A DNA stretch of 64,000 nt from Arenicola marina (taxonomy: Eukaryota > Annelida > Polychaeta > Arenicolidae). Positions within the stretch are counted from its first letter, which is position 1. Every line of letters begins with the position of its first letter. The translations under genes were made by a program, and so were the position numbers. This document shows, in pieces, positions 20,807 through 64,000 of the stretch. The stretch is taken from positions 13,634,254-13,698,253 of the forward strand of contig OZ025260.1 in NCBI GenBank assembly GCA_964019135.1. Direction: 5' to 3'. Below the pieces are notes generated by a model that saw only the letters and a program-made list of their open reading frames with translations, was not told the origin of the DNA and made no database searches.

Positions 20807-21484
20807 TCAGGATACCGTGTCTGACTCCACCTCGTCGGTTGCCAACTCAAGTCTATTCAGGAGGGAGGGGCTCCGCGGTGTCCCGCGGCGACTGCCCCCT
20901 CGATCTCTCCGACGATCTTCTCGCCGACTTCCCCGCCGACTGCCACCTAGATTAAAGAACAAGTTATTCTGTTCCTGTTTCTTTGGACGAGAAGGCTTGT
21001 CGGGACATCGTGCCAGCAAATAATGTTGGCATTTCTTTCTCCTTCTTTTTTTCTTGTCGGTTTTTTTGCCTCTGTCTTTCTTGGATCGACGAGACCCTTT
21101 ATTGGAGTCTGTTTTGTCTTTGTTCTTCTTGTTGTTATTTGTCTGCTCGGAACCACCGTCAGGCTCCTCATCCTCCACCGTTCGAGGGGGATCAGACGTT
21201 CCCTTGAACCCAATGGTGCCCCATGGCTCAGGTGATTTAGGCTTTTCCACCTTTAACTTCTGGAAGAGCATGACGGCGACCAGCGTGTCATTTACCGTGT
21301 GATAGTGGATGGCCAGGTTGCTTTTTCCTCTCCTGGTCTTTTGCATACTTAAGTACCACTCGATGCTTCTGTTTCTGCTGCAGGCTTCTCGCTTCTTCTT
21401 TCGTTGGCAGCCATAGTACTTGTGATGCCTAAACATCCAGTCACCCTCGTTGTCAGGGACTTCTACCCAACTGCAACGTTCTTG
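20807..21484 (-). CDS. FGF-like gene, exon 3 (core C-terminal half and basic tail)
   Basis: The minus-strand acceptor gttttcag precedes CAAGAACGTTGCAG, entering in phase 0 as the preceding exon requires. The exon encodes QERCSWVEVPDNEGDWMF, then a RHHKYYGC stretch and SIEWYLSMQKTRRGKSN; these match the FGF signatures C-F-x-E...NxYxxYxS..KY and WYxALNKxGxxxxG. HYHTVNDTLVAVMLFQKL takes the place of the usual final strand. After about residue 310 a tail of about 140 residues is dominated by Lys and Arg (KKRRRKK, SRRGSRREDRRRDRGG), ending LELATDEVESDTVS. The tail could bind heparan sulfate or act as a nuclear signal. The stop is at 20807-20809. The joined product is about 452 residues, twice a typical FGF. 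Confidence 0.8.
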   Translation of the reverse strand, partial: QERCSWVEVPDNEGDWMFRHHKYYGCQRKKKREACSRNRSIEWYLSMQKTRRGKSNLAIHYHTVNDTLVAVMLFQKLKVEKPKSPEPWGTIGFKGTSDPPRTVEDEEPDGGSEQTNNNKKNKDKTDSNKGSRRSKKDRGKKTDKKKRRRKKCQHYLLARCPDKPSRPKKQEQNNLFFNLGGSRRGSRREDRRRDRGGSRRGTPRSPSLLNRLELATDEVESDTVS

Positions 21485-22111
21485 CTGAAAACAAAGTGAA
21501 AAAGCAATGCATTTTGTGTAGAGCTATACTGTTTACATAGAACACTAAGGCAAGTCGGCGGCGTACGTATTTGAACCATATTTGTTCGATAAAAAGATCC
21601 CCGACGTCTATTTCCGTTTGGGAAGGAGATCGCTGATGACCTCTGTTCAGAAACTAGTCTGACAGAGGCCACCTGATCGCCTCACCAAAATTCTCACCCA
21701 TCTAGCACGGTATTTAGGCAAAGTGGGTTGCGATGGGTGGAGTGGATGGACGTCTCCTTGCCTGTTCCAGCCATTAGGTGGCTTTGAATTCCGCAGTATA
21801 CCTTTATTTATAGAATCGTATCATCATACATGGCAGAAGTATTCGCGCCATTGGATAGATCACTGACCGGTAATTGCATACGGTAATACCATGAAACCGA
21901 AGCGAACTATTTACAATACAAGTAAACGGAAATACGCAACATAGTACTCCCCCCCCCCCCCATCCCCCTACCCCCAATATATTATGTGTTCCGCCGCCAA
22001 GATGAACTAAGCTACTGTACCAGGGGAAACAAACCGCACATTATTTATTGCATACCGTTGACGCACAGCTTGCGCTTAGCATCCGAGCTAATTACTACCA
22101 CTAGCACCCAC
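21485..22111 (-). other. FGF-like gene, intron 2
   Basis: 627 bases from donor AAG|GTGGGT to acceptor ttttcag, read on the minus strand. It contains a C run at about 21950-21961 and no other feature. The intron falls just after the GRIYGMP turn, close to where the second conserved FGF intron lies (after the GRLYAS segment in vertebrate FGFs). Confidence 0.75.
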
Positions 22112-22308
22112 CTTCGTCTTCGATGATTTGTTGAATTTATCTACAGGCATGCCATAGATCCGGCCCCGGGAGTCCGCACACAGGAAAACGTGAGCCGCGA
22201 CGAACTGGATCACAATGGGTATGACAAGCTTCTGCTCCTTGTCCTTTTGGTTCATAATCAATGGACCAATCTCAGTAGAGTTAGCAGCTACTTTAAATAT
22301 AACGCGAC
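22112..22308 (-). CDS. FGF-like gene, exon 2 (beta-trefoil core)
   Basis: A 197-base exon with minus-strand acceptor ccgttgcag and donor AAG|GTGGGT. It enters in phase 1 and leaves in phase 0, matching both neighbours. It encodes RVIFKVAANSTEIGPLIMNQ, then QFVAAHVFLCADSRGRIYGM. The second segment aligns with the FGF core 'VAIKGVxSNRYLAMNKKGRLYAS', including the final Arg-Ile/Leu-Tyr turn. It is longer than the usual FGF middle exon of about 104 bases, the extra part being at its start. Family assignment rests on this motif, the intron position and the next exon. Confidence 0.8.
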
Positions 22309-23643
22309 CTGCAACGGAACAAAGACACTGAATAATGCATTCAGGAAATATACCAATAGTTCATGACATGATAACATAGTAAATGTAGGCATTGTGAGCG
22401 AGTCAGGAGTCATGGGAACTTAGCTGGCCAAGAAATTTAAGTTCATATTAAATGCCTAGGCTTTTTTGATTAAAAAAAAGTTAATTTCATTTAAGTGGAC
22501 AAGTAATAGGTAAACATTCGATATCAGTCTCATGCCTCAAACCCAAGCTAGCGAAAGGTCTAGATTGTTCTCAGAAACCATATATTAAAAAGCAGAGAAT
22601 GCTGGTAAAGGGATCACCACGAGATGAATTCAACTGTATTTTGTTTTGTTCTATAGGTGTCAGTACTGGAAACCATGTACTATATTGAACGGGAACGGCT
22701 TCGATTGAATGCTGGTGTGGTACAACGACTTGGCGTAATTAGTGAGGCGCGAAATAAGTGGTGGCTTGTCCAAGGCTACCAAGCAAATCGGACATACTCT
22801 CCATGTTAGGTCTGCCAGCATTATATAGATACGGTCAAGCTATGTAACAAAAAACGGTTGTCAATAATGGAATAACGGTTGTTTGTTGGTTGGTTGAACA
22901 TCTATAAGTAAGGATTTCAAATCCAAACGCATCATTATTAAAATCAAGATGATCTACCAAGTTCAAATGGTTGCATGAAGTGCGCATGCGTGTTGTGAGC
23001 CAGGGAAGCGGGTAGCGAATGGGCAACAAACAGAAAGCAGAAGGGAGAAAGAAAGAAATTAGGTTACCTTGGTGTGCTGTAGTGGGTGACAAAAGTTCCC
23101 CTTTGGCAATTACCACACCTTAAAAAGGCCCAAATTATGTCTCGTTGATGGCAAATTGCAGATTTAGGCTTCGGGTTTATATCATAGAAGTGTGGATGAA
23201 CATTCCTTAATTACTTTACCTTTCGCAGAACTTTAAAACATTTTGTATTGATTTATTTTATTTTCCCCCCAAAACGGAGAAAAATCAATGATGATAAGGT
23301 GCGTTTCCTTACATATCAAACCAAGTGCTTACACAGGTGGCTTATAATTGCATCGATCAAATATAGACTAGATCTAACGTGCTCTCTGTGCCATCCAACC
23401 GAACGTCTAATCTCTGACCAAGACACCAATCTATGGCAGTGCGACAATAGACCAACGAACAGTATGGAGTAGGAATAGGTCACTTTAGTTCCAGTCACGC
23501 CACGCTTGGCTTACTCTCATAGCAATCGTCCAGCGATTATCGTTTCTACAAAGCAGCAAGCAACAAGCGATATATATATATTATATACATATATACTACT
23601 GGTGCTTTGCTGTACTAGCATGAATTCATACGCTTGTACTCAC
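22309..23643 (-). other. FGF-like gene, intron 1
   Basis: 1335 bases between donor A|GTGAGT and acceptor gttgcag on the minus strand. A TATA simple repeat lies at about 23572-23596. No other gene is seen. Confidence 0.7.
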
Positions 23644-24127
23644 TATTATTACCGTCGTCCGCAGTCTCTGTGAAGCGAGCGGGTTTGTGGTTTCTGTCCA
23701 CAACGACGAATAATTTACTTGCGCCGCCAATCAAGTAGAAGTTTCCCTGCGTATCCTCCACGCTGCGGCGTTTGTGGTGGTTGTCAGGGTCATCCCCTAA
23801 CATTTCGGCGTGCTTCTCATCCTGACTCAACCTTCCTAGCGGCGAAGAGTACGACGCTAAGCCAGATATACCTCGGCCGTGGCGGCCACCAACACCCCCA
23901 CCCCCACCGTCGCCAGCGCCGGTTTTGGCAGCGTCGGCCCGACCACCTTGCGGCCGCGATCGCCGTGGCAACGGGGCCTGGAGGGGGAAGTTCGACAGGG
24001 TGTCTGCGGCCCGATTGCGGCCGTGGCGGATCCTCGGGTTGCTGAGGCTATATTGGACAGTGCTTGTCGGGGCCATGGTGAGAAACAAAAGGATGCTCAG
24101 TGTGGTCACGGTGACAGCAGCAGACAT
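23644..24127 (-). CDS. FGF-like gene, exon 1 (signal peptide, propeptide, start of core)
   Basis: The exon starts with ATG at 24127 (minus strand) and ends at donor AATAATA|GTGAGT in phase 1. Residues 1-25 (MSAAVTVTTLSILLFLTMAP...) form a hydrophobic signal peptide for secretion. Residues 30-115 are low-complexity, Gly- and Arg-rich. HHKRR at 117-121 is a dibasic/furin-type site immediately before the FGF core, which begins DTQGNFYLIGGASKLFVVVD and ends in exon 3. Release of the core by cleavage is inferred. The gene is transcribed away from the MICU2/3-type gene 8.4 kb to the right. By position it is a candidate FGF9/16/20 orthologue; by sequence it is divergent, so no symbol is given. Confidence 0.8.
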
Positions 24128-25012
24128 GACTGCAAGGACAAAACAGATAAAGCAATGTTATTAGTACATATAAACTCACGTACTGAACCAGTAAAATTGG
24201 TGCAAAGGCATTTTTTTTTTGTACAACGTCTTTTTCGGGGTTAACGTACTTGGTCTAAACCACTGATAGCGTCACTGCGGCGTACTTGTTACGCATATAT
24301 TTATAACAATAACATCTATAGTACATAATATTAACACAAATTCAATTCAACACTTGGTGAAGCGACGATGAAGCCTGGTGAAGCTATACTATACGGCTTG
24401 GTGAAGCCGTATTGTGTCTGTTAAATAACTGGCGTATTCTTATCACGGAGACATTACTCACACTTAAAACAACACATAACAACACTTTCCCAACTACCCG
24501 TCCTGGCTCGCGTACCAATTAGTCTGAATAAAACATTAACATAATGTGTAAAAGTAAACAATCGATTACATCCATGACATAGATTACTTTCGAATTCACC
24601 TCTCCAGGAAGAGATCATATGTAGGACCGAGTCCTTCGACCCTTTAAAACTGCAAAGGGCTTGGGAAAACAAGGTTTTAACGCTTCCCGTCCATCCAACG
24701 CAAAGGACAATAGGCATTCCCAACTTCCTGTTACGTCGCAATAATACTTTTGGTTGGCAGACCCGTAAGAGCCAGCCCCCCCCCCCCCCCCCTTCCCATC
24801 AGTATCTGTGACTATCTTTGTATGTAAGCCGTCAAGTGGCTCTTGTTTACACAGAGAGTCATATTCCTGGGCATCTTGTAACGACATATGTTATCAGCTC
24901 CGCTCTTTTCATATTTTGTCCAAACGGGTAACGTCATCTCGGAAAACCAAAACCAAAGCCGTTCTCCGTCCATCGAGTTACCACTTCGATTAGGGCAACA
25001 AGATTGCCGATC
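24128..25012. other. upstream region of the FGF-like gene
   Basis: Contains the presumed 5' UTR and promoter of the FGF-like gene on the minus strand. A C run lies at 24777-24792, and a short repeated phrase 'ggtgaagc' occurs at 24356-24408. No second gene is seen. Confidence 0.45.
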
Positions 25013-28000
25013 TTTGCTACCACTTGGACCAGGGAGGCTGCCAGACAGCAGATGGCGCTACCACTTGGACCAGGGAGGCTGCCAGACAGCCGATGGCGCC
25101 CCCAATTTGGACCAGGGAGGCTGCCAGACAGCCGATAACGCTACCACTTGGACCAGGGAGGCTGCCAGACAGCCGATAACGCTACCACTTGGACCAGGGA
25201 GGCTGCCAGACAGCCGATAACGCTACCACTTGGACCAGGGAGGCAGCCAGACAGCCGGTCTTCGCTACCACTTGGACCAGGGAGGCTGCCAGACAGCCGA
25301 TGGCGCTACCACTTGGACCAGGAGGGCTCTCAGACAGCCGATGGCGCTACCACTTGGACCAGGGAGGCTCCCAGACAGCCGATCGCGCCACCATGCACTT
25401 GGACCAGGGAGGCTGCCAGACAGCCGATGGCGCTACCACTTGGACCAGGAAGGCTCCCAGACAGCCTATCGCGCCACCATGCACTTGGACCAGGGAGGCT
25501 GCCAGACAGCCGATGGCGCTACCACTTGGACCAGGAAGGCTCTCATACAGCCGATGGCGCTACCACTTGGACCAGGGAGGCTCCCAGACAGCCAATCGCG
25601 CCACCATGCACTTGGACCAGGGAGGCTGCCAGACAGCCGATGGCGCTACCACTTGGACCAGGAAGGCTCTCAGACAGCCGATGGCGCTACCACTTGGACC
25701 AGGGAGGCTGCCAGACAGCAAATGGCGCTACCACTTGGACCAGGGAGGCTCCCAGACAGCCGATGGCGCCCCCAATTTGGACCAGGGAGGCTGCCAGACA
25801 GCCGATAACGCTACCACTTGGACCAGGGAGGCTGCCAGACAGCCGATAACGCTACCACTTGGATCAGGGAGGCAGCCAGACAGCCGATCGCGCTACCACT
25901 TGGACCAGGGAGGCTGCCAGACAGCCGATCTTCGCTACCACTTGGACCAGGGAGGCTGCCAGACAGCCGATGGCGCTACCACTTGGACCAGGAAGGCTCT
26001 CAGACAGCCGATGGCGCTACCACTTGGACCAGGGAGGCTGCCAGACAGCCGATGGCGCTACCACTTGGACCAGGAAGGCTCCCAGACAGCCGATGGCGCT
26101 ACCACTTGGACCAGGGAGGCTCCCAGACAGCCGATCGCGCTACCACTTGGACCAGAGAGGCTCCCAGACAGCCAATCTTCGCTACCACTTGGACCAGGGA
26201 GGCTCCCAGACGGCCGATCGCGCTACCACTTGGACCAGGGAGGCTGCCAGACAGCCGATCGCGCTACCACTTGGACCAGGGAGGCTCCCAGACAGCCGAT
26301 CTTCACTACCACTAGGACCAGGGAGGCTGCCAGACAGCCGATCTTCGCTACCACTTGGACCAGGGGGGCTCCCAGACAGCCGATCTTCGATACCACTTGG
26401 ACCAGGGAGGCTCCTAGACAGCCGATCTTCGCTACCACTTGGACCAGGGAGGCTCTCAAACAGCCGATCTTCGATACCACTTGGACCAGGGAGGCGCGCA
26501 TACGGCCGATGGCGCTACCACTTGGACCAGGAAGGCTCCCAGACAGCCGATCTTCGATACCACTTGGACCAGGGAGGCGCGCATACGGCCGATGGCGCTA
26601 CCACTTGGACCAGGGAGGCTCCCAGACAGCCGATCGCGCTACCACTTGGACCAGGGGGGCTGCCAGACAGCCGATGGCGCTACCACTTGGACCAGGGAGG
26701 CTGCCAGACAGCCAATCTTCGCTACCACTTGGACCAAGGAGGCTGCCAGACAGCCGATGGCGCTACCACTTGGACCAGGGAGGCTGCCAGACAGCCGATG
26801 GCGCTACCACTTGGACCAGGAAGGCTCCCAGACAGCCGATGGCGCTACCACTTGGACCAGGGAGGCTCTCAGACAGCCGATGGCGCTACCACTTGGACCA
26901 GGGAGGCTGCCAGACAGCCAATCTTCGCTACCACTTGGACCAGGGAGGCTGCCAGACAGCCGATGGCGCTACCACTTGGACCAGGGAGGCTGCCAGACAG
27001 CCAATCTTCGCTACCACTTGGACCAAGGAGGCTGCCAGACAGCCGATGGCGCTACCACTTGGACCAGGGAGGCTGCCAGACAGCCAATCTTCGCTACCAC
27101 TTGGACCAGGGAGGCTGCCAGACAGCCGATGGCGCTACCACTTGGACCAGGAAGGCTCCCAGACAGCCGATGGCGCTACCACTTGGACCAGGGAGGCTCT
27201 CAGACAGCCGATGGCGCTACCACTTGGACCAGGGAGGCTGCCAGACAGCCAATCTTCGCTACCACTTGGACCAGGGAGGCTGCCAGACAGCCGATGGCGC
27301 TACCACTTGGACCAGGGAGGCTCTCAGACAGCCGATGGCGCTACCACTTGGACCAGAGAGGCTCCCAGACAGCCGATCGCGCTACCACTAGGATCAGGGA
27401 GGCTCCCAGACAGCCGATGGCGCTACCACTTGGACCAGGGAGGCTGCCAGACAGCCGATGGCGCTACCACTTGGACCAGGAAGGCTCCCAGACAGCCGAT
27501 GGCGCTACCAGTGGACCAGGGAGGCTCTCAGACAGCCGATGGCGCTACCACTTGGACCAGGGAGGCTGCCAGACAGCCAATCTTCGCTACCACTTGGACC
27601 AGGGAGGCTGCCAGACAGCCGATGGCGCTACCACTTGGACCAGGGAGGCTGCCAGACAGCCAATCTTCGCTACCACTTGGACCAGGGAAGCTGCCAGACA
27701 GCCGATGGCGCTACCACTTGGACCAGGAAGGCTCCCAGACAGCCGATGGCGCTACCACTTGGACCAGGGAGGCTCTCAGACAGCCGATGGCGCTACCACT
27801 TGGACCAGGGAGGCTGCCAGACAGCCAATCTTCGCTACCACTTGGACCAGGGAGGCTGCCAGACAGCCGATGGCGCTACCACTTGGACCAGGGAGGCTCT
27901 CAGACAGCCGATGGCGCTACCACTTGGACCAGGGAGGCTGCCAGACAGCCGATCGCGCTACCACTAGGATCAGGGAGGCTGCCAGACAGCCGATCGCGCT

Positions 28001-28075
28001 ACCACTTGGATCAGGGAGGCCCCCAGACAGCCGATCTTCGCTACCACTAGGACCAGGGAGGCTGCCAGACACCCT
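25013..28075. repeat. 41-bp minisatellite (about 75 units)
   Basis: Units of 41 bp carry CCACTTGGACCAGGGAGGCT, then GCCAGACAGCCGATGGCGCTA, with alternatives gatcttcgcta, gataacgcta and gatcgcgcta at the end. Variants are arranged in recurring blocks (for example the series 'ggctgcc..aatcttcg / ggctgcc..gatggcg / ggctccc..gatggcg / ggctctc..gatggcg' around 26700-27300 and again 27540-27900), showing duplication of several units at once. The unit has no plus-strand stop in any frame, so open frames of up to 953 codons arise; with a period of 41 all three frames yield the same peptide cyclically. It lies between the FGF-like and MICU2/3-type genes. Confidence 0.95.
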
Positions 28076-31000
28076 ACGCTTACGGTCACTGAGGCTTCCT
28101 TGCGACCACTGAGATTTCCTACCACTACAGCCACAGAGGTGCATCAATCTCAATTAGTAACATTTAAAATCTACTACTAAATTTATGATGCAACTTAATT
28201 CCATGATCCAAAAGGCCCTAACGCAAAATCGACAAATTAAAAATATTGCAAATACATCTATCTGTATAGTCAGAGGAGAGATAGTATGTCTCATCATGCA
28301 TTCATGATTGTATAGCCACAGACCGGTGGACCGAGCAGAGCGTGACACAGCGAGCCGACCCGCCATCAGGTTGCAAGGTTTGCAGGTGGCACGTATTGCC
28401 TTGATAAATTAGCAAAAAAAGAAAAAAAGAAAAAGGAGAAGAAGAAGCTGGTATAACAAGACCTGGGCACATTAAGCGGCCAGGCGTTAAACTGAACCCA
28501 TCTCTCACCATAGGCTGCGTAAAGAAGGATGTAACGAGCCGACGACACAGGCAGGTAGGTAGGTAGGTCGCTTATGCTTCTGGTTGTACTCACGAGGGTA
28601 TACCGGGCTTGAGTAGCAGCGCAAGGGGGGGGGGGGTAGTTAGGTATGTAGGCAGGTCTAGATCGTGGTGGGGGGAGGGGCGAGGGAGGGGGGACTCTGA
28701 AGGAGGAGGGGTTGATTGTTAGGTGTGTGTGTGGGGCGGGGCGGGGGCGGTGTAAGAGGGATGAGACATGGAGAATAGAAGGGGGGGGGGAGCTGGAGCA
28801 GACGATCCTGCCCCCACCCGCAACCAGCGCCCCCCCCCCCCCCCCCACAACCCCTAGACCAATCTAGGCGCCTTAAGCGTATGTTATAGTTCACTTTTGA
28901 GCGGGCCGCTTGTCATGGAACACAGCTACTCCCTGCCCCGCTCCCCCGCCCGGGCCAACCTACAGCAGCGGCATACCTCGTTTACGCCATCGTGCATACC
29001 CGTATAAATAACTTACAGCCAACAGGTCTGCGACTTCATATATCACAATTTGCGGATTTATATACCGCAGAGCCAACCTGTCTACATAATCCTGCCAATG
29101 GCACTCAATAGGCATATATATATATTTTAATATAAATATGGAGATATTTTTTTATTGCCTGCCAAAACCATTTCTGCGGCCTGTTATCTCCAGTTATGAA
29201 CACATAATAACATAAGTCATCTCGCGCAACACGCCAAAGACACCCACCTCACATCTCGACTCTAGGTAGAGAGACCACTGCCTCGGGATGGTTGGGTGCA
29301 ATCTGTACACCCAACTTTTCAGGTATCCGTGCAATCATCGTAACTCCTCATTGCTAATTTAAAATCTTTACTACAACAACAGTCAATAGATTGACACCAA
29401 CGCACACAGAACGTTTGTTCAGTATATCCTCTATGGCCGTTGGCATCGACGCGAACACGATTTTAATAATCCAACTTTTTGCTGTAGGCAGCTGCAGATC
29501 CCACACCCATCAGAGGTATATATATATATATTTTATCTGGTGCAGATCAGAGACTTCAGACAATGCGAGGTGCAATCCAGAAAAGGTTAGAGTGAAGGCG
29601 GAACTCCGATAGCCCAAGGTTGTGGAGAGCTCAGGAGTAGGTGGTAGGTCCGAGTCCGAAGTCCCACCTAATTGGCCGCTGATCAACTAGTGAGCGTACA
29701 ACCTGATACGGATTGCCTGTACTTCGATCGTCTAACTTAACTCTCAGTTATTGCACCTCATAATCCAGGACGTTCGAGTGGCCGTGAACTGAGTAAGTTC
29801 CCTCCATGCTTGGTCCAGGTGTCGGCATTTCGCAAGGCGAGTGACTCGTCTGAGGAGGGGAGCCGGGAGGGGAGTTGAAGGGAGGGAAGGAGGGATGGTG
29901 GCAGCGGCGAGGCAACAGGTGTGAGGAGAGGGAGATGAATTGGGTGGCGCAGACGGACGGAGGGGTAGGAAGGCACCGTCTGCGAGCGTTTCCACGTACG
30001 CAGCGTCGCTTTCGGCGGAGACGTCCGAATGCGTGCGGTCTGACGACCCCCCGGCAGCGGTGGGTCGGTCGGTCGCTAGTCAGTCCTGAACGGCCAGGTA
30101 GGTCGGTGGGTAGGTATGCGACAGTTACTACCACCACTGCCGGCTGACTGACTGACTGGCTGGCTGGCTGGCTATTTGTATGAATGGCCGGGCCGAGAAC
30201 CACCCAAGATCCGTCACTCAAGCAATTGAATGCTTGGGACGAGTTCTATATATCTTATCTGGCTCGCTCCACAGTTTGTAGTTCACCCTCTTCGGTTATT
30301 GCGTCCGAGAGAGCGGTTAAAAACTCGTCCTATGGGACCCCAGGCCGTCGTGACCTGGCTTCAGGACGAACGAGATGCGACGTGTATAAAAAGTGTACTA
30401 CACGTATAGTCAGTCAGTCACCAGTTCTAATCCGGTCTATTTCGCCTACGTCAGCAGAAGATGGTCCGATGTAGCGATCGGTGTGCGTTGGTGGGGGTGG
30501 ATGGGGAGCGAGCGGACATACCCTCCGCCTGCGCCGCCGCCTCCTCCTCTACCTACCGCGACACGGAGATGGAGCGCAGGGTTCAGCGGTCCGTGGGTGG
30601 GTGGGCAGGCGAGAGGGGGTGGGCGGAGGGGGGAAGATGATTGTACTCAGCATGGATCACAGGTGTCATAGAGACGCCTCGGCATCCAATCACGTATCTG
30701 CACAATATCTAGGCGTGCAGAAGAGCCGTCGAGGACCGCATGCGGCGGTCTACGGTAACACCAATCCGTGGTATATCGCTTATTAGTACGAGTGGAAACA
30801 GTCTTCTGGATCTGCCAGCAGACGCTTTCTTGTCTGGCGAAATTACTCGCCGATAAACCTGGATTCTCGGAGATCAGTGGTACCGGCGGTAGGCGGCTCT
30901 TATGGTATATGCGCCAGTATTCCTCAATCTGTGGAACCAGACTGGATGAAGTCTATCCACCTTCTGAGAAGAAAACCGGCAAGTCTGTAATCCGTTCTGT

Positions 31001-32470
31001 ATTGTATGCTCCTAATGCACGTCACACATGTATATATACATATAAATATGTATATATATAGAGAGATGTATTCAGTATTGAAGACGAACTGCTTTCTGGA
31101 TCTATGCAATGCGCGTCCAGCGAGGAGTAACACCTTTAAAAGGCAGAAATCAATTTAGCGAAAGCGCTGAGCCGGTTTCCTCCCGGTCGTATGCCTACGT
31201 GAAATTGGTTGGAATCACAGCAACGCGCGCGCTGTAGAAGTCGCAACTCGCCGTTTGCGACGTTGGCTGGCAAGTAAATTATAAAGCTGAAAGCCCGGCA
31301 GCGAAACAAATGATGACGGGAAGCTCCTTCCCTCCTTTGCATTGACTGAGTGAATATCCAGCCAGGTCTAGGGCAGCTGTGAAAACCAGCAAACCCAAGG
31401 TAGTTAAAGTCGGGTGTGGAGGTGCTGCGCCCGCGTCTGCCTCAACTGGCGTTCCGATCAACGAGTGACGGGTGGAGGGCCCCCTCCGCGTTGGTGAGAG
31501 GTTCAGTCGAGCCTGCCCCCCTCGCTAGCGAGCCCAGACCCAGGGCTGGCTGGCTGCTTGCTTGTTTGCACCGTCCAATAACGAAAGCGAAGCATCTGCG
31601 GCTCGCGGGCCGGGGTGGGCGGGCCGTGGGCCGGCGACCCGCGACCTACCACCACCCCTCGGCAACCGGCGGGGAGCTCGTATCGAGAGAGAGAGAGATT
31701 TCCATCTCGAGTCTATAGTATTGGGGAGATGGGTCATACGCGCACGCTTCACGTGCAATCTCCTTCACTGGTACACCGCTGGTACATGAATCACTTTTAT
31801 CAACCAAACGAGACAAAAAAAAAACAAAAAAAACAAACAGCGGGAGTGATCTGCCGGTGCGAGTTAATAAAAGATTGCACGTTTGTTTATTATCAATATA
31901 ATCTTTCGAGCGCCATTTTGACCCTATTTGGCCCCATGTATGTAGACGATAAATTATATTTTAAAAACAGCCTTCCAGTTCCACGTACCTCTTCATCAGG
32001 CTCTGTTCTCACGGAGTTTTCAGTCTTAGGTATTACGACAGGCCGATCACGCATCGTTCGAAGAATCGGGTTTTGGGGTCTTAATTAGCCTGGCCACAGA
32101 AAGGACCGATAGGAATTATACTGATTGTTTTTTATCGTGTGTGCTCTCATAGGCTATAGGCCTACTCCAAATTTTTTTGATTGATGATTCACTGATTCCA
32201 GGGTCATATCATTGCGCTCAATCTACTAGCCTGGCTGACTTAAGAAAATTCACCTGGAACAAATTCCTCAGCGTAGGGGCCTAATGGATGTTCGTGTATT
32301 TTTTGTCTCGAAGATACAAGGGGTGAGCTCTTTATATCTTTGCAAAACTTATGCGTCATATTGAGTCCTACGCGACATATATATGTGTAGTTGTTATATA
32401 GACTTATGTTTATAACGCGGGCAAGTCCAGACACAACGCCAACCAAGGGAACCAGCACAGCGAGAAACTT
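28076..32470. other. intergenic DNA upstream of the MICU2/3-type gene
   Basis: No convincing exon was found. Notable low-complexity tracts are a G-rich block at 28624-28800, a C run at 28830-28845, tetranucleotide GGTA/GGTC repeats (28552-28568, 30060-30115) and tggc repeats at 30157-30174. Long open frames on the minus strand near 29750-30220 and 28366-28848 are composed of simple sequence and lack splice or family support. Confidence 0.45.
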
Positions 32471-32506
32471 TGTGCGCAGGCGCATTTGCGGCGACCAAAA
32501 TCCAAG
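32471..32506 (+). promoter_or_regulatory. NRF1-like and YY1-like motifs at the MICU2/3-type start
   Basis: TGTGCGCAGGCGCAT (32471-32485) contains TGCGCAGGCGCA, a strong match to the nuclear respiratory factor 1 palindrome. At 32503-32513 CAAGATGGCAGCG overlaps the start codon and matches the YY1 motif AAGATGGC. The two lie within 40 bases of each other at the 5' end of a gene for a mitochondrial protein, where both factors are well known in animals. The transcription start is not known, so the NRF1-like site could be in the promoter or the 5' UTR. Confidence 0.6.
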
Positions 32507-32707
32507 ATGGCAGCGGCCTTCAGACGAGGTCTGCAGCGGGGACTGGCCCTAAATTATATGTATTATCGCCCCATTTCCACGAAATCAGCTTCATTTGGGA
32601 GATTTTCTGTGAGAAATCTGTTTGTTGGAGCAGGAGGCACGGCCATAGCATGCTATCTAATCAAACGCTACTCGAATTTGTCGTTTGAACCGTGTGTTTA
32701 TGCCAAG
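32507..32707 (+). CDS. MICU2/MICU3-type gene, exon 1 (mitochondrial targeting segment)
   Basis: 67 codons from ATG at 32507 to donor AAG|GTAGGT, phase 0. The start MAAAFRRGLQRGLALNYM and following RPISTKSASFGRFSVRN contain no acidic residue and several Arg/Lys, typical of a mitochondrial import signal. FVGAGGTAIACYLIKRYSN is a short hydrophobic segment as in MICU2/3 N-termini, which sit in the intermembrane space. MICU2/3 proteins pair with MICU1 and gate the mitochondrial calcium uniporter by EF-hand calcium sensing. Assignment comes mainly from the downstream exons on the same strand. The 16-kb interval to the next recognised exon should contain several exons that I did not find. Confidence 0.7.
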
Positions 32708-33091
32708 GTAGGTTTTTGTACGATGTAAACAAACCGCCCCAAACTTCGTTCATCTACATTTTGTGACAACCTTCTCTGTAATTATGTGTCTGTGCGAACC
32801 CTAGGATTTGATCTTTTATTGTCATGTTGTTTACTTCTGCAAGAGTCCACCTCAATTTACGTGTTGACACGTTTAACATCTGCTCAGACTGCTGTCAAAC
32901 ATGTTGACTGAGTGACAGATCTACAAAAAGTGACAGGTTTCGGCCATATCAAGTGAAGGACCATACGGGCCACGCCCACATCAACACTGGGTGGTATTCG
33001 AATCCTAAGTGAACTGTGAAGATATATATTAATTGCATTGCTTTAAAAGAGACACATATTATAAATAGATCTAACCTTCATCAATAGATTG

Positions 33092-42014: not shown

Positions 42015-42214
42015 NNNNNNNNNNNNNNNNNNNNNNNNNNNNNNNNNNNNNNNNNNNNNNNNNNNNNNNNNNNNNNNNNNNNNNNNNNNNNNNNNNNNNN
42101 NNNNNNNNNNNNNNNNNNNNNNNNNNNNNNNNNNNNNNNNNNNNNNNNNNNNNNNNNNNNNNNNNNNNNNNNNNNNNNNNNNNNNNNNNNNNNNNNNNNN
42201 NNNNNNNNNNNNNN
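42015..42214. other. assembly gap of exactly 200 N
   Basis: The round length suggests a placeholder, so the true missing length is unknown. The gap abuts the 21-bp array on its left and non-repetitive sequence on its right. It may contain some of the unfound MICU2/3-type exons. Confidence 0.95.
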
Positions 42215-44897: not shown

Positions 44898-47800
44898 GGA
44901 TGTGACCACGTGTTGCTGAGACCACGTGTCGGCTGAGGCCACGTGTCGGCTGTGACCAGTGTGTCGGCTGAGGCCACGTGTCGGCTGTGACAACGTGTCG
45001 GCTGAGGCCAGTGTGTCGACTGTGTCCAGTGTGTCGGCTGTGACCAGTGTGTCGACTGTGACCAGTGTGTCGGCTGTGACCAGTGTGTCGACTGTGACCA
45101 GTGTGTCGGCTGTGACCAGTGTGTCGGCTGTGTCCAGTGTGTCGGCTGTGACCAGTGTGTCGACTGTGACCAGTGTGTCGGCTGTGACCAGTGTGTCGAC
45201 TGTGACCAGTGTGTAGGCTGTGACCAGTGTGTCGGCTGTGACCAGTGTGTCGGCTGTGACCACGTGTCGGCTGTGACCAGTGTGTCGGCTGAGGCCACGT
45301 GTCGGCTGAGGCCACTTGTCGGCTGAGACCACGTGTCGGCTGTGACCAGTGTGTCGGCTGTGACCAGTGTGTCGGCTGAGACCACGTGTCGGCTGTGACC
45401 AGTGTGTCGGCTGTGACCAGTGTGTCGGCTGTGACCAGTGTGTCGGCTGTGACCAGTGTGTCGGCTGAGACCACGTGTCGGCTGTGACCAGTGTGTCGGC
45501 TGTGACCAGTGTGTCGGCTGAGGCCACTTGTCGGCTGAGACCACGTGTCGGCTGTGACCAGTGTGTCGGCTGAGACCACGTGTCGGCTGTGACCAGTGTG
45601 TCGGCTGAGGCCACGTGTCGGCTGAGGCCACTTGTCGGCTGAGACCACGTGTCGGCTGTGACCAGTGTGTCGGCTGTGACCAGTGTGTCGGCTGAGACCA
45701 CGTGTCGGCTGTGACCAGTGTGTCGGCTGTGACCTGTGTGTCGGCTGTGACCAGTGTGTCGGCTGTGACCACGTGTCGGCTGTGACCAGTGTGTCGGCTG
45801 TGACCAGTGTGTCGGCTGTGACCAGTGTGTCGGCTGTGACCAGTGTGTCGGCTGTGACCTGTGTGTCGGCTGTGACCAGTGTGTCGGCTGTGACCAGTGT
45901 GTCGACTGTGACCAGTGTGTCAACTGAGGCCACTTCTCGGCTGAGACCACGTGTCGGCTAAGGCCACGTGTCGGCTGTGACCAGTGTGTCGGCTGAGGCC
46001 ACTTCTCGGCTGAGACCACGTGTCGGCTGAGGCCACGTGTCGGCTGAGGCCACTTCTCGGCTGAGACCACGTGTCGGCTGTGACCAGTGTGTCGGCTGTG
46101 ACCAGTGTGTCGGCTGTGACCAGTGTGTCGACTGTGACCAGTGTGTCGGCTGAGACCACGTGTCGGCTGTGACCAGTGTGTCGGCTGTGACCAGTGTGTC
46201 GGCTGAGACCACGTGTCGGCTGTGACCAGTGTGTCGGCTGTGACCAGTGTGTCGGCTGTGACCAGTGTGTCGGCTGAGACCACGTGTCGGCTGTGACCAG
46301 TGTGTCGGCTGAGACCAGTGTGTCGGCTGTGACCAGTGTGTCGGCTGTGACCAGTGTGTCGACTGTGACCAGTGTGTCGGCTGTGACCAGTGTGTCGGCT
46401 GTGACCAGTGTGTCGGCTGTGACCAGTGTGTCGGCTGTGACCAGTGTGTCGGCTGTGACCAGTGTGTCGGCTGTGACCAGTGTGTCGGCTGAGACCACGT
46501 GTCGGCTGTGACCAGTGTGTCGGCTGTGACCAGTGTGTCGACTGTGACCAGTGTGTCGACTGTGACCAGTGTGTCGACTGTGACCAGTGTGTCGGCTGTG
46601 ACCAGTGTGTCGGCTGTGACCAGTGTGTCGGCTGAGGCCAGTGTGTCGGCTGAGACCACGTGTCGGCTGTGACCAGTGTGTCGGCTGTGACCAGTGTGTC
46701 GGCTGTGACCAGTGTGTCGACTGTGACCAGTGTGTCGGCTGTGACCTGTGTGTCAGCTGTGACCTGTGTGTCGGCTGTGACCAGTGTGTCGGCTGTGACC
46801 AGTGTGTCGGCTGTGACCACGTGTCGGCTGTGACCAGTGTGTCGGCTGTGACCAGTGTGTCGACTGTGACCAGTGTGTCGGCTGTGACCAGTGTGTCAGC
46901 TGAGACCTGTGTGTCAGCTGTGACCTGTGTGTCAGCTGAGACCACGTGTCGGCTTTTACCACGTGTCGGCTTTTACCACGTGTCGACTGAGACCACGTGT
47001 CGGCTGAGACCACGTGTCGGCTGAGACCACGTGTCGGCTGAGACCAGTGTGTCGGCTGTGACCAGTGTGTCGGCTGTGACCAGTGTGTCGGCTGAGACCA
47101 CGTGTCGGCTGTGACCAGTGTGTCGGCTGTGACCAGTGTGTCGGCTGTGACCAGTGTGTCGGCTGTGACCAGTGTGTCGGCTGTGACCAGTGTGTCGGCT
47201 GTGACCAGTGTGTCGGCTGTGACCAGTGTGTCGGCTGTGACCAGTGTGTCGGCTGTGACCAGTGTGTCGGCTGAGGCCAGTGTGTCGGCTGTGACCAGTG
47301 TGTCGACTGTGACCAGTGTGTCGGCTGTGACCAGTGTGTCGGCTGAGACCACGTGTCGGCTGTGACCAGTGTGTCGGCTGTGACCTGTGTGTCGGCTGTG
47401 ACCAGTGTGTCGGCTGTGACCAGTGTGTCGGCTGTGACCAGTGTGTCGGCTGTGACCTGTGTGTCGGCTGTGACCAGTGTGTCGGCTGTGACCTGTGTGT
47501 CGGCTGTGACCAGTGTGTCGGCTGTGACCAGTGTGTCGACTGTGACCAGTGTGTCGGCTGTGACCAGTGTGTCGGCTGTGACCTGTGTGTCGGCTGTGAC
47601 CAGTGTGTCGGCTGTGACCAGTGTGTCGGCTGTGACCTGTGTGTCGGCTGTGACCAGTGTGTCGGCTGTGACCTGTGTGTCGGCTGTGACCAGTGTGTCG
47701 GCTGTGACCAGTGTGTCGGCTGTGACCAGTGTGTCGGCTGTGACCAGTGTGTCGGCTGTGACCTGTGTGTCGGCTGTGACCAGTGTGTCGGCTGTGACCT

Positions 47801-48047
47801 GTGTGTCGACTGTGACCAGTGTGTCGGCTGTGACCTGTGTGTCAGCTGAGACCACGTGTCGGTATTTACCACGTGTCGGCTTTTACCACGTGTCGACTGA
47901 GACCACGTGTCGGCTGAGACCACGTGTCGGCTGAGACCACGTGTCGGCTGTGACCACGTGTCGGCTGAAGCCACGTGTCGGCTGAGGTCACGTATTGGCT
48001 GAGGTCACGTGTCGCTTATGACCACGTGTTGGCTGAGGTCACGTGTG
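44898..48047. repeat. 18-bp minisatellite (about 175 units) with many CACGTG E-boxes
   Basis: Main unit GTGTCGGCTGTGACCAGT; variants change accagt to acctgt, ggctgtg to gactgtg, and, recurrently, to a 17-bp form gagaccacgtgtcggct that creates the palindrome CACGTG. About 40 CACGTG sites are scattered through the array and concentrated at both ends (44900-44970 and 46935-47010, 47850-48045). Unit sizes of 18 keep frames open over hundreds of codons on both strands; no gene is inferred. It lies in the intron before the exon at 49061. Confidence 0.95.
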
Positions 48048-53627: not shown

Positions 53628-53795
53628 GACATTCGTCCTTGACCATCGTCCTTGACCTTCGTCCCTGACCTTCGTCCCTGACCTTTGTCCCTGACCTTCG
53701 TCCCTGACCTTCATCCCTGACCTTTGTCCCTGACCTTCGTCCCTGACCTTCATCCCTGACCTTAGTTTATGACCTTCACCCTTGACCTTCACCCA
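53628..53795. repeat. 13-bp minisatellite (about 13 units)
   Basis: Units of GACCTTCGTCCCT with cat/ctt variants run head to tail in an intron of the MICU2/3-type gene. Confidence 0.9.
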
Positions 53796-55632: not shown

Positions 55633-55730
55633 GACGCATCTGCGGGCGTCCCATTGACCAATACGACCTTGACCGTGCACTTCTTCGGACGTAAAGGCAC
55701 AGACGTCCTCAAGTACGAGGACTTCCACAG
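55633..55730 (+). CDS. MICU2/3-type gene, exon starting the second conserved half
   Basis: 98 bases between acceptor tatttag and donor CACAG|GTGAGC, entering in phase 0 and leaving in phase 2. It encodes ASAGVPLTNTTLTVHFFGRK followed by GTDVLKYEDFHR. The segment TTLTVHFFGRKG...L.YEDFxR is nearly the same as in MICU3 (TTLLVHFFGKKG...LNFEDFYR). This is the region following the linker, shared by MICU2 and MICU3 but not MICU1. The donor is the first unit of a 32-bp minisatellite. Confidence 0.9.
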
Positions 55731-57016: not shown

Positions 57017-60000
57017 AGTCATGCTCTCAGTGCATAGCCATGCATTCAGTGCAGTCCCATACACTCAGAGCAGAGCCATACACTCAGTGCAGAGCCATAC
57101 ATTCAGTGCAGTCTCATACACTCAGTGCATGGCCATACATTCAGTGCAGTCTCATACACTCAGTGCAGTCCCATACACTCAGTGCAGTCCCATACACTCC
57201 GTGCAGTCCCATACACTCAGTGCAGTCCCATACACTCAGTGCAGTCCCATACACTCAGTGCAGTCCCATACACTCAGTGCAGTCCCATACACTCAGTGCA
57301 GAGCCATACATTCAGTGCAGTCTCATACACTCAGTGCAATCCCATACACTCAGTGCAGTCCCATACACTCAGTGCAGAGCCATACACTCAGTGCAGTCTC
57401 ATACACTCAGTGCAGAGCTATACACTCAGTGCAGAGCCATACATTCAGTGCAGTCTCATACACTCAGTGCAGAGCCATACACTCAGTGCAGTCCCATACA
57501 CTCAGTGCAGTCCCATACACTCAGTGCAGTCCCATACACTCAGTGCAGTCCCATACACTCCGTGCAGTCCCATACACTCAGTGCAGAGCCATACATTCAG
57601 TGCAGTCCCATACACTCAGTGCAGTCTCATACACTCAGTGCAGTCCCATACACTCAGTGCAGTCCCATACACTCAGTGCAGTCTCATACACTCAGTGCAG
57701 AGCTATACACTCAGTGCAGAGCCATACACTCAGTGCAGTCCCATACACTCAGTGCAGAGCCATACACTCAGTGCATAGCCATACACTCAGTGCAGTGACA
57801 TACACTCAGTGCAGAGCCATACACTCAGCGCAGAGCCATACATTCAGTACAGAGCCATACACTCAGTGCAGTCCCACACACCCAGTGCAGTCCCATACAC
57901 TCAGTGCAGAGCCATACACTCAGTGCAGTCCCATACACTCAGTGCAGTCCCATACACTCAGTGCAGAGCCATACACTCAGTGCAGTGACATACACTCAGT
58001 GCAGAGCCATACACTCAGTGCAGAGCCATACATTCAGTACAGTCCCATACACTCAGTGCAGTCCCATACACTCAGTGCAGTCCCATACATTCAGTGCAGT
58101 CCCATACACTCAGTGCAGTCCCATACACTCAGTGCAGAGCCATACACTCAGTGCATAGCCATACACTCAGGGCAGTCCCATACACTCAGTGCAGTCTCAT
58201 ACACTCAGTGCAGAGCCATACACTCAGGGCAGTCCCATACACTCAGTGCAGCCCCATACACTCAGTGCAGTCCCATACACTCAGTGCAGTCCCATACACT
58301 CAGTGCAGCCCCATACACTCAGTGCAGTCCCATACACTCAGTGCAGAGCCATACACTCAGTGCAGTCCCATACACTCAGTGCAGCCCCATACACTCAGTG
58401 CAGTCCCATACACTCAGTGCAGTCCCATACACTCAGTGCAGCCCCATACACTCAGTGCAGTCCCATACACTCAGTGCAGAGCCATACACTCAGTGCAGTC
58501 CCATACACTCAGTGCAGAGCCATACACTCAGCGCAGAGCCATACATTCAGTACAGTCCCATACACACAGTGCAGTCCCATACACTCAGTGCAGTCCCATA
58601 CACTCAGTGCAGTCCCATACACTCAGTGCAGAGCCATACACTCAGTGCAGTCCCATACACTCAGTGCAGAGCCATACACTCAGTGCAGTCCCATACACTC
58701 AGTGCAGTCCCATACACTCAGTGCAGTCCCATACACTCAGTGCAGAGCCATACACTCAGTGCAGTGACATGCACTCAGTGCAGAGCCATACATTCAGTAC
58801 AGTCCCATACACTCAGTGCAGTCCCATACACTCTGGCAGTCCCATACACTCAGTGCAGTCTCATACACTCAGTGCAGAGCTATACACTCAGTGCAGAGCC
58901 ATACACTCAGTGCAGTCCCATACACTCAGTGCAGAGTCATACACTCAGTACAGAGCCATACACTCAGTGCAGTCCCATACACTCAGTGCAGTGACATACA
59001 TTCAGTACAGTCCCATACACTCAGTGCAGTCCCATACACTCAGTGCAGTCCCATACACTCAGTGCAGTCCCATGCACTCAGTGCAGTCCCATACACTCAG
59101 TGCAGTCCCATACACTCAGTACAGTCCCATACACTCAGTGCAGTCCCATACACTCAGTGCAGTCCCATACACTCAGTGCAGTCCCATACACTCAGTGCAG
59201 TCCCATACACTCAGTGCAGAGCCATACACTCAGTGCAGTCCCATACACTCAGTGCAGTCCCATACACTCAGTGCAGTCCCATACACTCAGTGCAGTCCCA
59301 TACACTCAGTGCAGTCCCATACACTCAGTGCAGTCCCATACACTCAGTGCAGAGCCATACACTCAGTGCAGTCCCATACACTCAGTGCAGTCCCATACAC
59401 TCAGTGCAGTCCCATACACTCTGTGCAGTCCCATACACTCAGTGCAGAGCCATACACTCAGTGCAGTCCCATACACTCAGTGCAGTCCCATACACTCAGT
59501 GCAGTCCCATACACTCTGTGCAGTCCCATACACTCAGTGCAGTTCCATACACTCAGTGCAGAGCCATACACTCAGTGCAGTCCCATACACTCAGTGCAGA
59601 GCCATACACTCAGTGCAGTCCCATACACTCAGTGCAGTCCCATACACTCAGTGCAGTCCCATACACTCAGTGCAGCCCCATACACTCAGTGCAGTCCCAT
59701 ACACTCAGTGCAGAGCCATACACTCAGTGCAGTCCCATACACTCAGTGCAGAGTCATACACTCAGTACAGAGCCATACACTCAGTGCATAGCCATACACT
59801 CAGTGCAGAGCCATACACTCAGTGCCGAGCCATACACTCAGTGCAGTCCCATACACTCAGTGCAGTCCCATACATTCAGTGCAGTCCCATACACTCAGTG
59901 CAGTCCCATACACTCAGTGCAGTCCCATACATTCAGTGCAGTCCCATACACTCAGTGCAGTCCCATACACTCAGTGCAGTCCCATACACTCAGTGCAGTC

Positions 60001-62268
60001 CCATACACTCAGTGCAGTCCCATACACTCAGTGCAGTCCCATACATTCAGTACAGTCCCATACACTCAGTGCAGTCCCATACACTCAGTGCAGTCCCATA
60101 CACTCAGTGCAGTCCCATGCACTCAGTGCAGTCCCATACACTCAGTGCAGTCCCATACATTCAGTACAGTCCCATACACTCAGTGCAGTCCCATACACTC
60201 AGTGCAGTCCCATACACTCAGTGCAGTCCCATACACTCAGTGCAGAGCCATACACTCAGTGCAGTCCCATACACTCAGTGCAGTCCCATACACTCAGTGC
60301 AGTCCCATACACTCAGTGCAGTCCCATACACTCAGTGCAGTCCCATACACTCAGTGCAGAGCCATACACTCAGTGCAGTCCCATACACTCAGTGCAGTCC
60401 CATACACTCAGTGCAGTCCCATACACTCTGTGCAGTCCCATACACTCAGTGCAGTCCCATACACTCAGTGCAGAGCCATACACTCAGTGCAGTCCCATAC
60501 ACTCAGTGCAGAGCCATACACTCAGTGCAGTTCCATACACTCAGTGCAGTCCCATACACTCTGTGCAGTCCCATAGACTCAGTGCAGTCCCATACACTCA
60601 GTGCAGTCCCATACATTCAGTACAGTCCCATACACTCAGTGCAGCCCCATACACTCAGTGCAGTCCCATACACTCAGTGCAGTCCCATACACTCAGTGCA
60701 GAGCCATACACTCAGTGCAGAGCCATACACTCAGTCCAGTCCCATACACTCAGTGCAGAGCCATACACTCAGTGCAGAGCCATACACTCAGTGCAGAGCC
60801 ATACACTCAGTGCAGTCCCATACACTCAGTGCAGAGCCATACACTCAGTGCAGTCCCATACACTCAGTGCAGAGCCATACACTCAGTGCAGAGCCATACA
60901 TTCAGTACAGTCCCATACACTCAGTGCAGTCCCATACACTCAGTGCAGTCCCATACACTCAGTGCAGTCCCATGCACTCAGTGCTGAGCCATACACTCAG
61001 TGCAGAGCCATACACTCAGTGCAGTCCCATACACTCAGTGCAGCCATACACTCAGTGCAGAGCCATACACTCAGTGCAGAGCCATACACTCAGTGCAGTC
61101 CCATACACTCAGTGCAGAGCCATACACTCAGTGCAGAGCCATACACTCAGTGCAGCCCCATACACTCAGTGCAGTGACATACACTCAGTGCAGAGCCATA
61201 CACTCAGTGCAGTCCCATACACTCAGTGCAGAGCCATACACTCAGTGCAGAGCCATACACTCAGTGCAGAGCCATACACTCAGTGCAGTCCCATACACTC
61301 AGTGCAGAGCCATACACTCAGTGCAGAGCCATACACTCAGTGCAGTCCCATACACTCAGTGCAGAGCCATACACTCAGTGCAGTCCCATACACTCAGTGC
61401 AGTCCCATACACTCAGTGCAGAGCCATACACTCAGTGCAGTCCCATACACTCAGTGCAGTCCCATACACTTAGTGCACTCAGTGCAGTCCCATACACTCA
61501 GTGCAGTCCCATACACTCAGTGCAGTCCCATGCACTCAGTGCTGAGCCATACACTCAGTGCAGAGCCATACACTCAGTGCAGTCCCATACACTCAGTGCA
61601 GAGCCATACACTCAGTGCAGAGCCATACACTCAGTGCAGAGCCATACACTCAGTGCAGTCCCATACACTCAGTGCAGAGCCATACACTCAGTGCAGAGCC
61701 ATACACTCAGTGCAGCCCCATACACTCAGTGCAGTGACACACACTCAGTGCTGAGCCATACACTCAGTGCAGAGCCATACACTCAGTGCAGTCCCATACA
61801 CTCAGTGCAGAGCCATACACTCAGTGCAGAGCCATACACTCAGTGCAGAGCCATACACTCAGTGCAGTCCCATACACTCAGTGCAGAGCCATACACTCAG
61901 TGCAGAGCCATACACTCAGTGCAGCCCCATACACTCAGTGCAGTGACATACACTCAGTGCAGAGCCATACACTCAGTGCAGTCCCATACACTCAGTGCAG
62001 AGCCATACACTCAGTGCAGAGCCATACACTCAGTGCAGAGCCATACACTCAGTGCAGTCCCATACACTCAGTGCAGAGCCATACACTCAGTGCAGAGCCA
62101 TACACTCAGTGCAGTCCCATACACTCAGTGCAGAGCCATACACTCAGTGCAGTCCCATACACTCAGTGCAGTCCCATACACTCAGTGCAGAGCCATACAC
62201 TCAGTGCAGTCCCATACACTCAGTGCAGTCCCATACACTCAGTGCACTCAGTGCAGTCCCATACACTC
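57017..62268. repeat. 19-bp minisatellite (about 276 units, 5.25 kb)
   Basis: Units alternate mainly between CAGTCCCATACACTCAGTG and CAGAGCCATACACTCAGTG, with rarer cagtctcatacattcagtg, cagtgacatac and cagccccatac forms. The order of forms is repeated over several hundred bases near 60960-62260, showing recent block duplications. All plus-strand frames lack stops, so open frames up to 903 codons appear; with period 19 each frame gives the same 19-residue cycle. It fills most of the intron between the exons at 55633 and 62719. Confidence 0.96.
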
Positions 62269-62718: not shown

Positions 62719-62896
62719 GTTCATGGACAACCTGCAGACTGAGGTTCTGGAGCTGGAGTTTAACGAGTTCTCCAAGGGCATGGCCACCATTTCGGAGGTG
62801 GAGTTCGCTCAGATCTTGCTGCGCTACACGATCCTGTCTGGTGAAGAGAATGAGGAGTACCTGCAGCGGCTCAGGACCAAGGTCCAGGACATCAAG
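62719..62896 (+). CDS. MICU2/3-type gene, exon encoding FMDNLQTEVLE region
   Basis: 178 bases from acceptor cctcccccag to donor AAG|GTACGT; enters in phase 2, leaves in phase 0. The product RFMDNLQTEVLELEFNEFSK continues GMATISEVEFAQILLRYT and ends RTKVQDIK. FMDNLQTEVLE-x-EF and the ISE-x-x-FA-x-ILLRYT motif are almost the same as in MICU3 and less like MICU2, and distinct from MICU1. This part forms the helical lobe between the two EF-hands. Confidence 0.95.
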
Positions 62897-63216: not shown

Positions 63217-63325
63217 GGTATCAGCTTCAAGGAATTCAAGGACTTTTGCCAGTTTCTCAACAACCTTGATGACTTTGCCTTGGCTATGAGGCTTTTCGCC
63301 TACGCCAAACATGATATTTCCCAAG
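63217..63325 (+). CDS. MICU2/3-type gene, exon encoding GISFKEFKDFCQFLNN
   Basis: 109 bases from acceptor ccgtttcag to donor CAAG|GTAAAA; enters in phase 0, leaves in phase 1. It encodes GISFKEFKDFCQFLNNLDDF and ALAMRLFAYAKHDISQ. The match GI-T/S-F-x-EF-x-x-FxQFLNNL-x-DFA-x-A is specific to the MICU2/3 branch. It precedes the C-terminal EF-hand. Confidence 0.95.
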
Positions 63326-63658
63326 GTAAAATAATATAACTGATTTATGACATATGACGTATACCGGTAGCATTTTCGAGGGAGACTTGGAGCCAAATTT
63401 GTTCTTCGCTTTCCTAGCATTTGGAGGAGACCCAACATTTTTCTAACATGTGAAAATCCTGTTGAAGAAAGCCAATGTGGGAGGGGGTTTGGGGGGTTGG
63501 GAGGGGGGTTGGGAGGGGGGCTAGGGAAGAACATTAAACTCACTGTAGTACTTAAAGAAACACTTCCGGGTTACATTTCTTTTGTTATTGCCCCCTCACC
63601 CCCCTCGCCGCCACCTCTTTACCGACATCCTGGATCAGTGCTTGCTGGCGTGTTTCAG
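63326..63658. other. MICU2/3-type intron, 333 bases
   Basis: Between donor G|GTAAAA and acceptor ggcgtgtttcag. A G-rich block (ggggggttgggagggg) lies at 63480-63525. Confidence 0.8.
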
Positions 63659-63816
63659 AGGAGTTCAACCAGGCCGTAAAGGCGTGCACTGGGTACGGCC
63701 TCAGCGAGCACCTCGTCGATGTCGTCTTCAAGCTGTTTGACGTCGACGGCGACAAACATCTCAGTCAGGACGAGTTCATCTCAGTCATGAAGGACAGGCT
63801 GCATCGAGGATTCAGG
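63659..63816 (+). CDS. MICU2/3-type gene, exon with canonical C-terminal EF-hand (end uncertain)
   Basis: Acceptor gcgtgtttcag, entering in phase 1 so the first codon is GAG. It encodes EEFNQAVKACTGYGLSEHLV, then FKLFDVDGDKHLSQDEF. This is a complete EF-hand: the loop D-V-D-G-D-K-H-L-S-Q-D-E has Asp at positions 1, 3 and 5 and Glu at 12. SVMKDRLHRGFR follows, as in MICU3. Homology ends at base 63816, where a GC donor (AGG|GCACGT) is possible; otherwise a GT three to four bases later is used, or the frame, which stays open to the window edge, continues. The last few residues of the protein are beyond the window or in the open extension. Confidence 0.85.
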
Positions 63817-63863
63817 GCACGTATTCCACCCGCATATAGAATATCCTTTAAACCGCCAGACAT

Positions 63864-64000
63864 AGGCTACCGTAGAACCGCCGTTGCGTGTCCATGCGGT
63901 GTGCAGTTGCAGGCCCCGGGAGGCCGGCCGTCTGGCTACCGTAGAACCGCCGTTGCGTGTCCATGCGGTGTGCAGTTGCAGGCCCCCGGAAGCCGGCCGT
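63864..64000. repeat. 69-bp tandem duplication at the window edge
   Basis: Two copies of a G/C-rich 69-bp unit starting GGCTACCGTAGAACCGCCGT (63864 and 63933), differing at about three positions and cut off by the window end. Because 69 is a multiple of three, the frame of the preceding EF-hand exon stays open through both copies. It may extend as a longer array. Confidence 0.85.

Follow-up and report, generated by a model that had tools for sequence, protein, structure and literature searches.

Background

The human FGF9–MICU2 and FGF20–MICU3 gene pairs are presumably arranged head to head. In the tetrapod FGF9–EFHA1 (MICU2) and FGF20–EFHA2 (MICU3) blocks, EFHA and ZDHHC genes lie upstream of the FGF gene, so the pairing of FGF with MICU is already published for tetrapods; in teleosts, the genes of this cluster are described on different chromosomes (available text of PMC3636272). 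We analyzed a stretch of 64,000 nucleotides from Arenicola marina (contig OZ025260.1, positions 13,634,254 to 13,698,253; hereafter the window), which carries an FGF-like gene on the minus strand and a MICU2/3-type gene on the plus strand. The best joint explanation of the observations, which we consider rather likely, is that of an annelid locus where the gene for an FGF ligand, itself evolving fast, lies head to head with a MICU2/3 gene. No report of an FGF–MICU pair outside vertebrates was found among the matches listed from the open-licence literature, and for a Drosophila bnl/MICU3 linkage, CG4662 was unmentioned among the matches listed from the same literature.

The window resembles the tetrapod FGF9 and FGF20 blocks in having a MICU2/3-type gene upstream of the FGF, in the head-to-head orientation of the human pairs, and differs from them in having one pair, a far more divergent FGF, and 8.4 kb between the start codons. 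The comparison with the human neighborhoods made in the initial annotation is supported in that MICU lies upstream of the FGF in the tetrapod blocks (available text of PMC3636272).

Among annelids, nereid FGFA (Avi-fgfA and its Platynereis counterpart) was described in 2021 as an orphan second FGF, with synteny named as a way to place it, and the sole reported Capitella FGF was assigned to FGF8/17/18 (available part of PMC8224027). Avi-fgfA, whose GenBank accession falls within MZ234756–MZ234759, is, like the window gene, an annelid FGF that evolves fast and is left unplaced by trees (same part of PMC8224027); two published Avi-fgfA primers had no match in the window at three or fewer mismatches, which is no test of orthology. 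Capitella was reported to have one FGF and Lottia two, one of them with an FGF20-like best hit and located on JGI sca_16 (available part of PMC3420111); the Lottia MICU3 (P0123) is on a contig of 3,760,045 bases. Two brachiopods and one phoronid each have one FGF9/16/20 and one FGF8/17/18 gene (PMC8180254), and for Helobdella and Dimorphilus the lack of an FGF ligand has been described (PMC7854359), as stated in the available portions of these papers. The lophophorate and Lottia FGF9/16/20 genes share with the window gene, as we read it, the status of spiralian FGFs outside FGF8/17/18 (PMC8180254, PMC8224027, and PMC3420111, each in part), but their placement came from phylogeny or best hits, whereas the window FGF is placed by its neighborhood.

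The Head-to-Head Gene Pair

The two genes are oriented head to head, and we hold with moderate to good confidence that the pair is real. As the initial annotation had described, the minus-strand gene has three coding exons (24127-23644, 22308-22112 or 22145, and 21484-20807) whose reading frame closes:

23644..24127, minus strand: FGF-like coding exon 1, with a signal-peptide-like hydrophobic N-terminus, a low-complexity pro-region, a dibasic KRR, and the first core strands
22112..22308, minus strand: FGF-like coding exon 2, with core strands including G-R-I-Y-G and the long donor AAG/GTGGGT
20807..21484, minus strand: FGF-like coding exon 3, with the remaining core and a 148-amino-acid tail of 28% K+R, stop included

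The donor of exon 1 is GTGAGT in phase 1. For exon 2, an alternative short donor sets the exon end at 22145; the frame closes with both donors and comprises 452 amino acids, or 441 with the weaker short donor. The splice sites are consensus-like, and the exon edges give a phase-1 intron followed by a phase-0 intron. FGF genes have three coding exons with phase-1 and then phase-0 introns at the usual core positions; thus, the exon number and intron phases were counted in support of an FGF identity. The pro-region is glycine-rich and basic, with the KRR site ahead of the core. The hydrophobic N-terminus and this dibasic site predict a secreted protein, which would bind heparan sulfate and an FGF receptor. 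An acceptor-like CCTTGCAG at 24120-24145 (minus strand) ends two bases 5' of the ATG. As it directly precedes the start codon, the gene may have a noncoding 5' exon, and the true intergenic distance may then be smaller.

When the three core pieces were compared with 24736 Pfam models, FGF was the top family (E = 0.024–0.035). A hidden Markov model (HMM) built from 11 FGFs (eight human sequences and three from the database) was scored on 1142 six-frame open reading frames (ORFs) of the window, and FGF-like exon 2 ranked first (E = 0.1). The core with the short donor scored 10.7 bits, a value reached by none of 2000 shuffles, and the core with the long donor scored 8.9 bits, reached by one of 2000; both cores scored 0.8 bits when reversed. 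FGF4 was the best pairwise match of the core among the 11 FGFs, and a BLASTP alignment with FGF4 (E = 2e-5 as a single comparison) spans the join of exons 2 and 3. The FGF call from the protein sequence by itself would be of modest strength; with the neighboring gene counted in, the minus-strand gene is very likely an FGF.

The plus-strand MICU2/3-type gene, which had been annotated as running from 32.5 kb onward, is represented by exon 1 and four C-terminal exons. It is not continuous, in that its middle exons are unseen and 200 N interrupt it:

32507..32707, plus strand: MICU2/3 exon 1, with an arginine-rich N-terminus, a hydrophobic stretch, the end VYAK, and donor GTAGGT
42015..42214, no strand: assembly gap of 200 N, with a minisatellite (41659-42003) by its left edge
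55633..55730, plus strand: MICU2/3 exon, containing LTNTTLTVHFFGRKGTDVLKYEDFHR (HMM E = 1.6e-11)
62719..62896, plus strand: MICU2/3 exon, containing FMDNLQTEVLELEF (HMM E = 2.9e-28)
63217..63325, plus strand: MICU2/3 exon, containing GISFKEFKDFCQFLNNLDDF (HMM E = 3.5e-18)
63659..~63815, plus strand: MICU2/3 exon with the C-terminal EF-hand DVDGDKHLSQDEF (HMM E = 2e-26), right edge not fixed

The joined C-terminal exons matched human MICU3 with E = 3.5e-59 and MICU2 with 1.9e-48, and the best MICU1 match had 2.7e-27. By these scores, the four exons at 55.6-63.8 kb belong to a MICU2/3 gene and are closer to MICU3 and MICU2 than to MICU1, and the gene is best explained as related to MICU2 and MICU3 of vertebrates alike. 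Among the best 120 of 1645 database matches, the leading ones were the Capitella teleta protein and a EukProt transcript, each with 71% identity, and the Lottia protein with 63%. The window protein shares the C-terminal EF-hand with human MICU3 (6agi; 58.5% identity over 171 residues) and with invertebrate MICU3 (Capitella; 71.3% over 174 residues), and differs from them in that no MICU sequence is visible from the end of exon 1 to the exon at 55.6 kb. For this part, EF-hand 1 included, the window gave no convincing match by tblastn, ungapped scoring, motif search, or HMM; the N-terminal EF-hand is not in the visible sequence. The missing middle exons probably lie in the N gap.

As the N-termini of MICU proteins are variable, a separate N-terminal HMM was built for exon 1, using 23 of 105 N-termini cut from 120 database proteins (15 mollusc, one nemertean, seven arthropod, and no annelid rows). 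The ORF at 32402-32725, which contains the ATG at 32507, ranked first of 1142 six-frame ORFs of at least 30 amino acids (E = 0.002; next 0.31). Exon 1 is thereby a candidate for the N-terminal segment of MICU2/3 with mitochondrial targeting and a hydrophobic stretch. It is well supported that MICU exon 1 and the FGF share one gap-free stretch, so their linkage is independent of the N gap.

Age of the Pair and Retention of the Linkage

A MICU tree of 28 rows combined the window with human MICU3, one MICU2 row, and 25 proteins taken from the 120 database matches listed. The window fell into a set of seven rows with Capitella, Helobdella, the EukProt transcript, and three further rows (support 100/99), and the annelid Owenia, the molluscs, the arthropods, and the human rows were outside this set. 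By its MICU sequence, the locus thus has an annelid affinity; a deuterostome origin of the window was rejected by the same tree. The initial annotation had proposed a single pair predating the vertebrate genome duplications. The tetrapod-like arrangement fits this proposal, which understated the age: since the locus is annelid, the pair, if homologous, is suggested to be older than the protostome–deuterostome split. Checking the FGF phylogeny within a deuterostome frame, as had also been recommended, is the wrong test for a locus that MICU places in annelids. A point against an ancient pair is that a single invertebrate has shown it so far.

The stretch between the two start codons was as follows:

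24128..32506, no strand: 8379 bases, with a 41-bp minisatellite at 25016-28071

The distance from ATG to ATG was measured as 8380 bases, in line with the 8.4 kb first noted. The earlier view that no other recognized gene lies between the pair also held: none of 10 chosen intergenic ORFs had a Pfam match at E ≤ 0.1. The minisatellite takes up 3056 of the 8379 bases (36%), and minisatellite also makes up 81% of one MICU intron (5649 of 6985 bases), which leaves limited room for regulatory elements.

MICU2/3 is a regulator of mitochondrial calcium uptake, and no functional connection between the products of FGF and MICU2/3 is known to us. If the pair is ancient, FGF regulation embedded in the block may explain why the genes have stayed linked for so long, although its chance falls somewhat short of even: the enhancers of the FGF gene would be located in the intergenic DNA or in introns of MICU, which would itself be a bystander. 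The scattering of the cluster in teleosts lowers the odds of this explanation. Alternatively, an ancient pair may have been kept only through unbroken linkage, with no shared or embedded regulation, which is compatible with an annelid FGF–MICU2/3 locus. The minisatellite content of the intergenic DNA and the intron favors such inertia, the 8.4 kb between the start codons would be too far for one promoter, and the teleost genes lie on different chromosomes (available text of PMC3636272). The survival of the tetrapod pairing in two duplicated blocks, described in the same text, would be less likely under chance retention. We regard inertia as a fair rival, with a chance approaching even.

Subfamily of the FGF Gene

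The window FGF is probably an orthologue of FGF9/16/20, recognized by position, because in tetrapods a MICU2/3 (EFHA) gene is found upstream of FGF9 as well as of FGF20. The same criterion, MICU2/3 upstream of the FGF, describes the window, and it is not universal, being broken in teleosts (available text of PMC3636272). We estimated that a random FGF would be the divergent 5' neighbor of MICU2/3 with a chance of about 1 in 10^4, assuming 2–5 FGF genes among about 25,000 genes.

The sequence gives the window FGF no subfamily and leans slightly against FGF9/16/20. A tree of 12 FGF rows left the gene unplaced on an end branch of 7.8 changes per column. The approximately unbiased (AU) test gave p = 0.046 against grouping the window gene with FGF9/16/20 and p = 0.152 for grouping it with FGF8. 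The pairwise z-scores were 0.9 for FGF9, 1.55 for FGF16, and -0.17 for FGF20. By eye, the stretch GILRRRQLYCRTGFHL ahead of the core, common to the FGF9, FGF16, and FGF20 rows, is absent from the window protein. GILRRRQLYCRTGFHL is a mark of the vertebrate members. Because GILRRRQLYCRTGFHL is absent, the gene was filed as FGF9/16/20 by position only. The proposal that position identifies this divergent FGF therefore stands in part: the tree does leave the gene unplaced, and the name has no sequence support, with the AU result against it.

On the same evidence, the gene may belong to another FGF line, for example as a lineage-specific FGF or a derived copy of FGF8/17/18, and have reached its place next to MICU2/3 through chance rearrangement. 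The unplaced position in the tree, the marginal AU rejection of FGF9/16/20 but not of FGF8, the top pairwise match to FGF4 with the low z-scores for FGF9, FGF16, and FGF20, and the assignment of the sole reported Capitella FGF to FGF8/17/18 (available part of PMC8224027) agree with this view. However, chance adjacency in this orientation would be rare by the above estimate, whose gene numbers are assumed, and a branch of 7.8 is so long that tree and AU tests weigh little. We therefore consider another line unlikely and retain FGF9/16/20 as the probable assignment.

FGF Identity and Assembly Integrity

The minus-strand exons could also be no FGF at all; they would then be open frames that arose by chance or encode a different secreted protein. 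A number of results argue in this direction and weaken the FGF call. The core scored 14.5–15.1 bits, below the Pfam FGF cut-off of 24 bits, and the entire protein had no Pfam match at E ≤ 1. With the FGF HMM, the lead of exon 2 was narrow (E = 0.1 vs. 0.17 for the next ORF), and exon 3 by itself did not stand out. The hhalign probability of the core was low (21–28%, local), although P was 0.0006–0.0011. No database homologue of the core was found at E ≤ 10 among 147 candidates, and no PDB sequence matched the core at E ≤ 10. The whole protein had five PDB matches, none an FGF: two engineered tetratricopeptide repeat (TPR) proteins (E = 6.6e-5 and 0.058) and three low-complexity matches. Structure models of single exons were uninformative as to a beta-trefoil fold, with a mean predicted local distance difference test (pLDDT) of 45.6 and 59.7, too poor for a fold search. 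Nevertheless, shuffled cores almost never reached the observed scores (0 and 1 of 2000), the FGF4 match runs over the intron, FGF leads the Pfam families for the core pieces, and the intron phases fit an FGF with consensus-like splice sites; a protein other than an FGF is thus improbable.

Two further results count against the MICU gene model, as a full-length HMM of 16 MICU3 proteins reported the four C-terminal ORFs but not exon 1 at E ≤ 5 (3010 ORFs of at least 12 amino acids), and the only connection between exon 1 and the C-terminal exons runs through the N gap. A misjoin of the contigs flanking 42015-42214, which would make the C-terminal MICU exons foreign to the FGF locus, draws on the gap with the minisatellite by its left edge and on the unmatched middle part of MICU, but it is highly improbable in view of the MICU-type exon 1, which shares the stretch to the left of the gap with the FGF, and the agreement in strand and order of the C-terminal exons to its right.

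Other Features of the Window

Tandem arrays, listed as 16 stretches, cover 20,764 of the 64,000 bases (32.4%). The six largest arrays and one further gene-like feature are given below:

4163-8237: tandem array, unit 55 bp
12597-14401: tandem array, unit 22 bp
25016-28071: tandem array, unit 41 bp
38431-39794: tandem array, unit 27 bp
44895-47967: tandem array, unit 18 bp
57026-62246: tandem array, unit 19 bp
15200-16480, plus strand: ORF of the NAD-dependent epimerase family, intact single ORF of 427 amino acids (Pfam Epimerase E = 7e-14)

The top PDB match of the epimerase ORF was UDP-glucose 4-epimerase 2 (E = 3.9e-5). Among 10 ORFs selected on the left side of the FGF, Pfam gave one sub-threshold match only (Duc1, E = 0.093). 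Two short repeat pairs lie outside the tandem arrays, 10682-10887 with 10920-11122 (77% over 217) and 9199-9275 with 11397-11473 (81% over 77). No Rfam family was found in the window at the gathering cut-off, and a tRNA search of the window returned none.

Implications

It is conceivable, though doubtful, that the block persisted in annelids even as the sequence of the FGF decayed almost past recognition; Helobdella and Dimorphilus may then still carry an FGF beside MICU2/3. The value of the pair lies in being a testable landmark. The neighborhood would offer a means of naming worm FGFs that are beyond the reach of sequence comparison. If FGF9/16/20 adjoins MICU2/3 across Bilateria, MICU2/3 would become a landmark by which such FGFs could be found and named, reported FGF losses could be examined anew, and a candidate regulatory block of ancient origin could be tested in several phyla.

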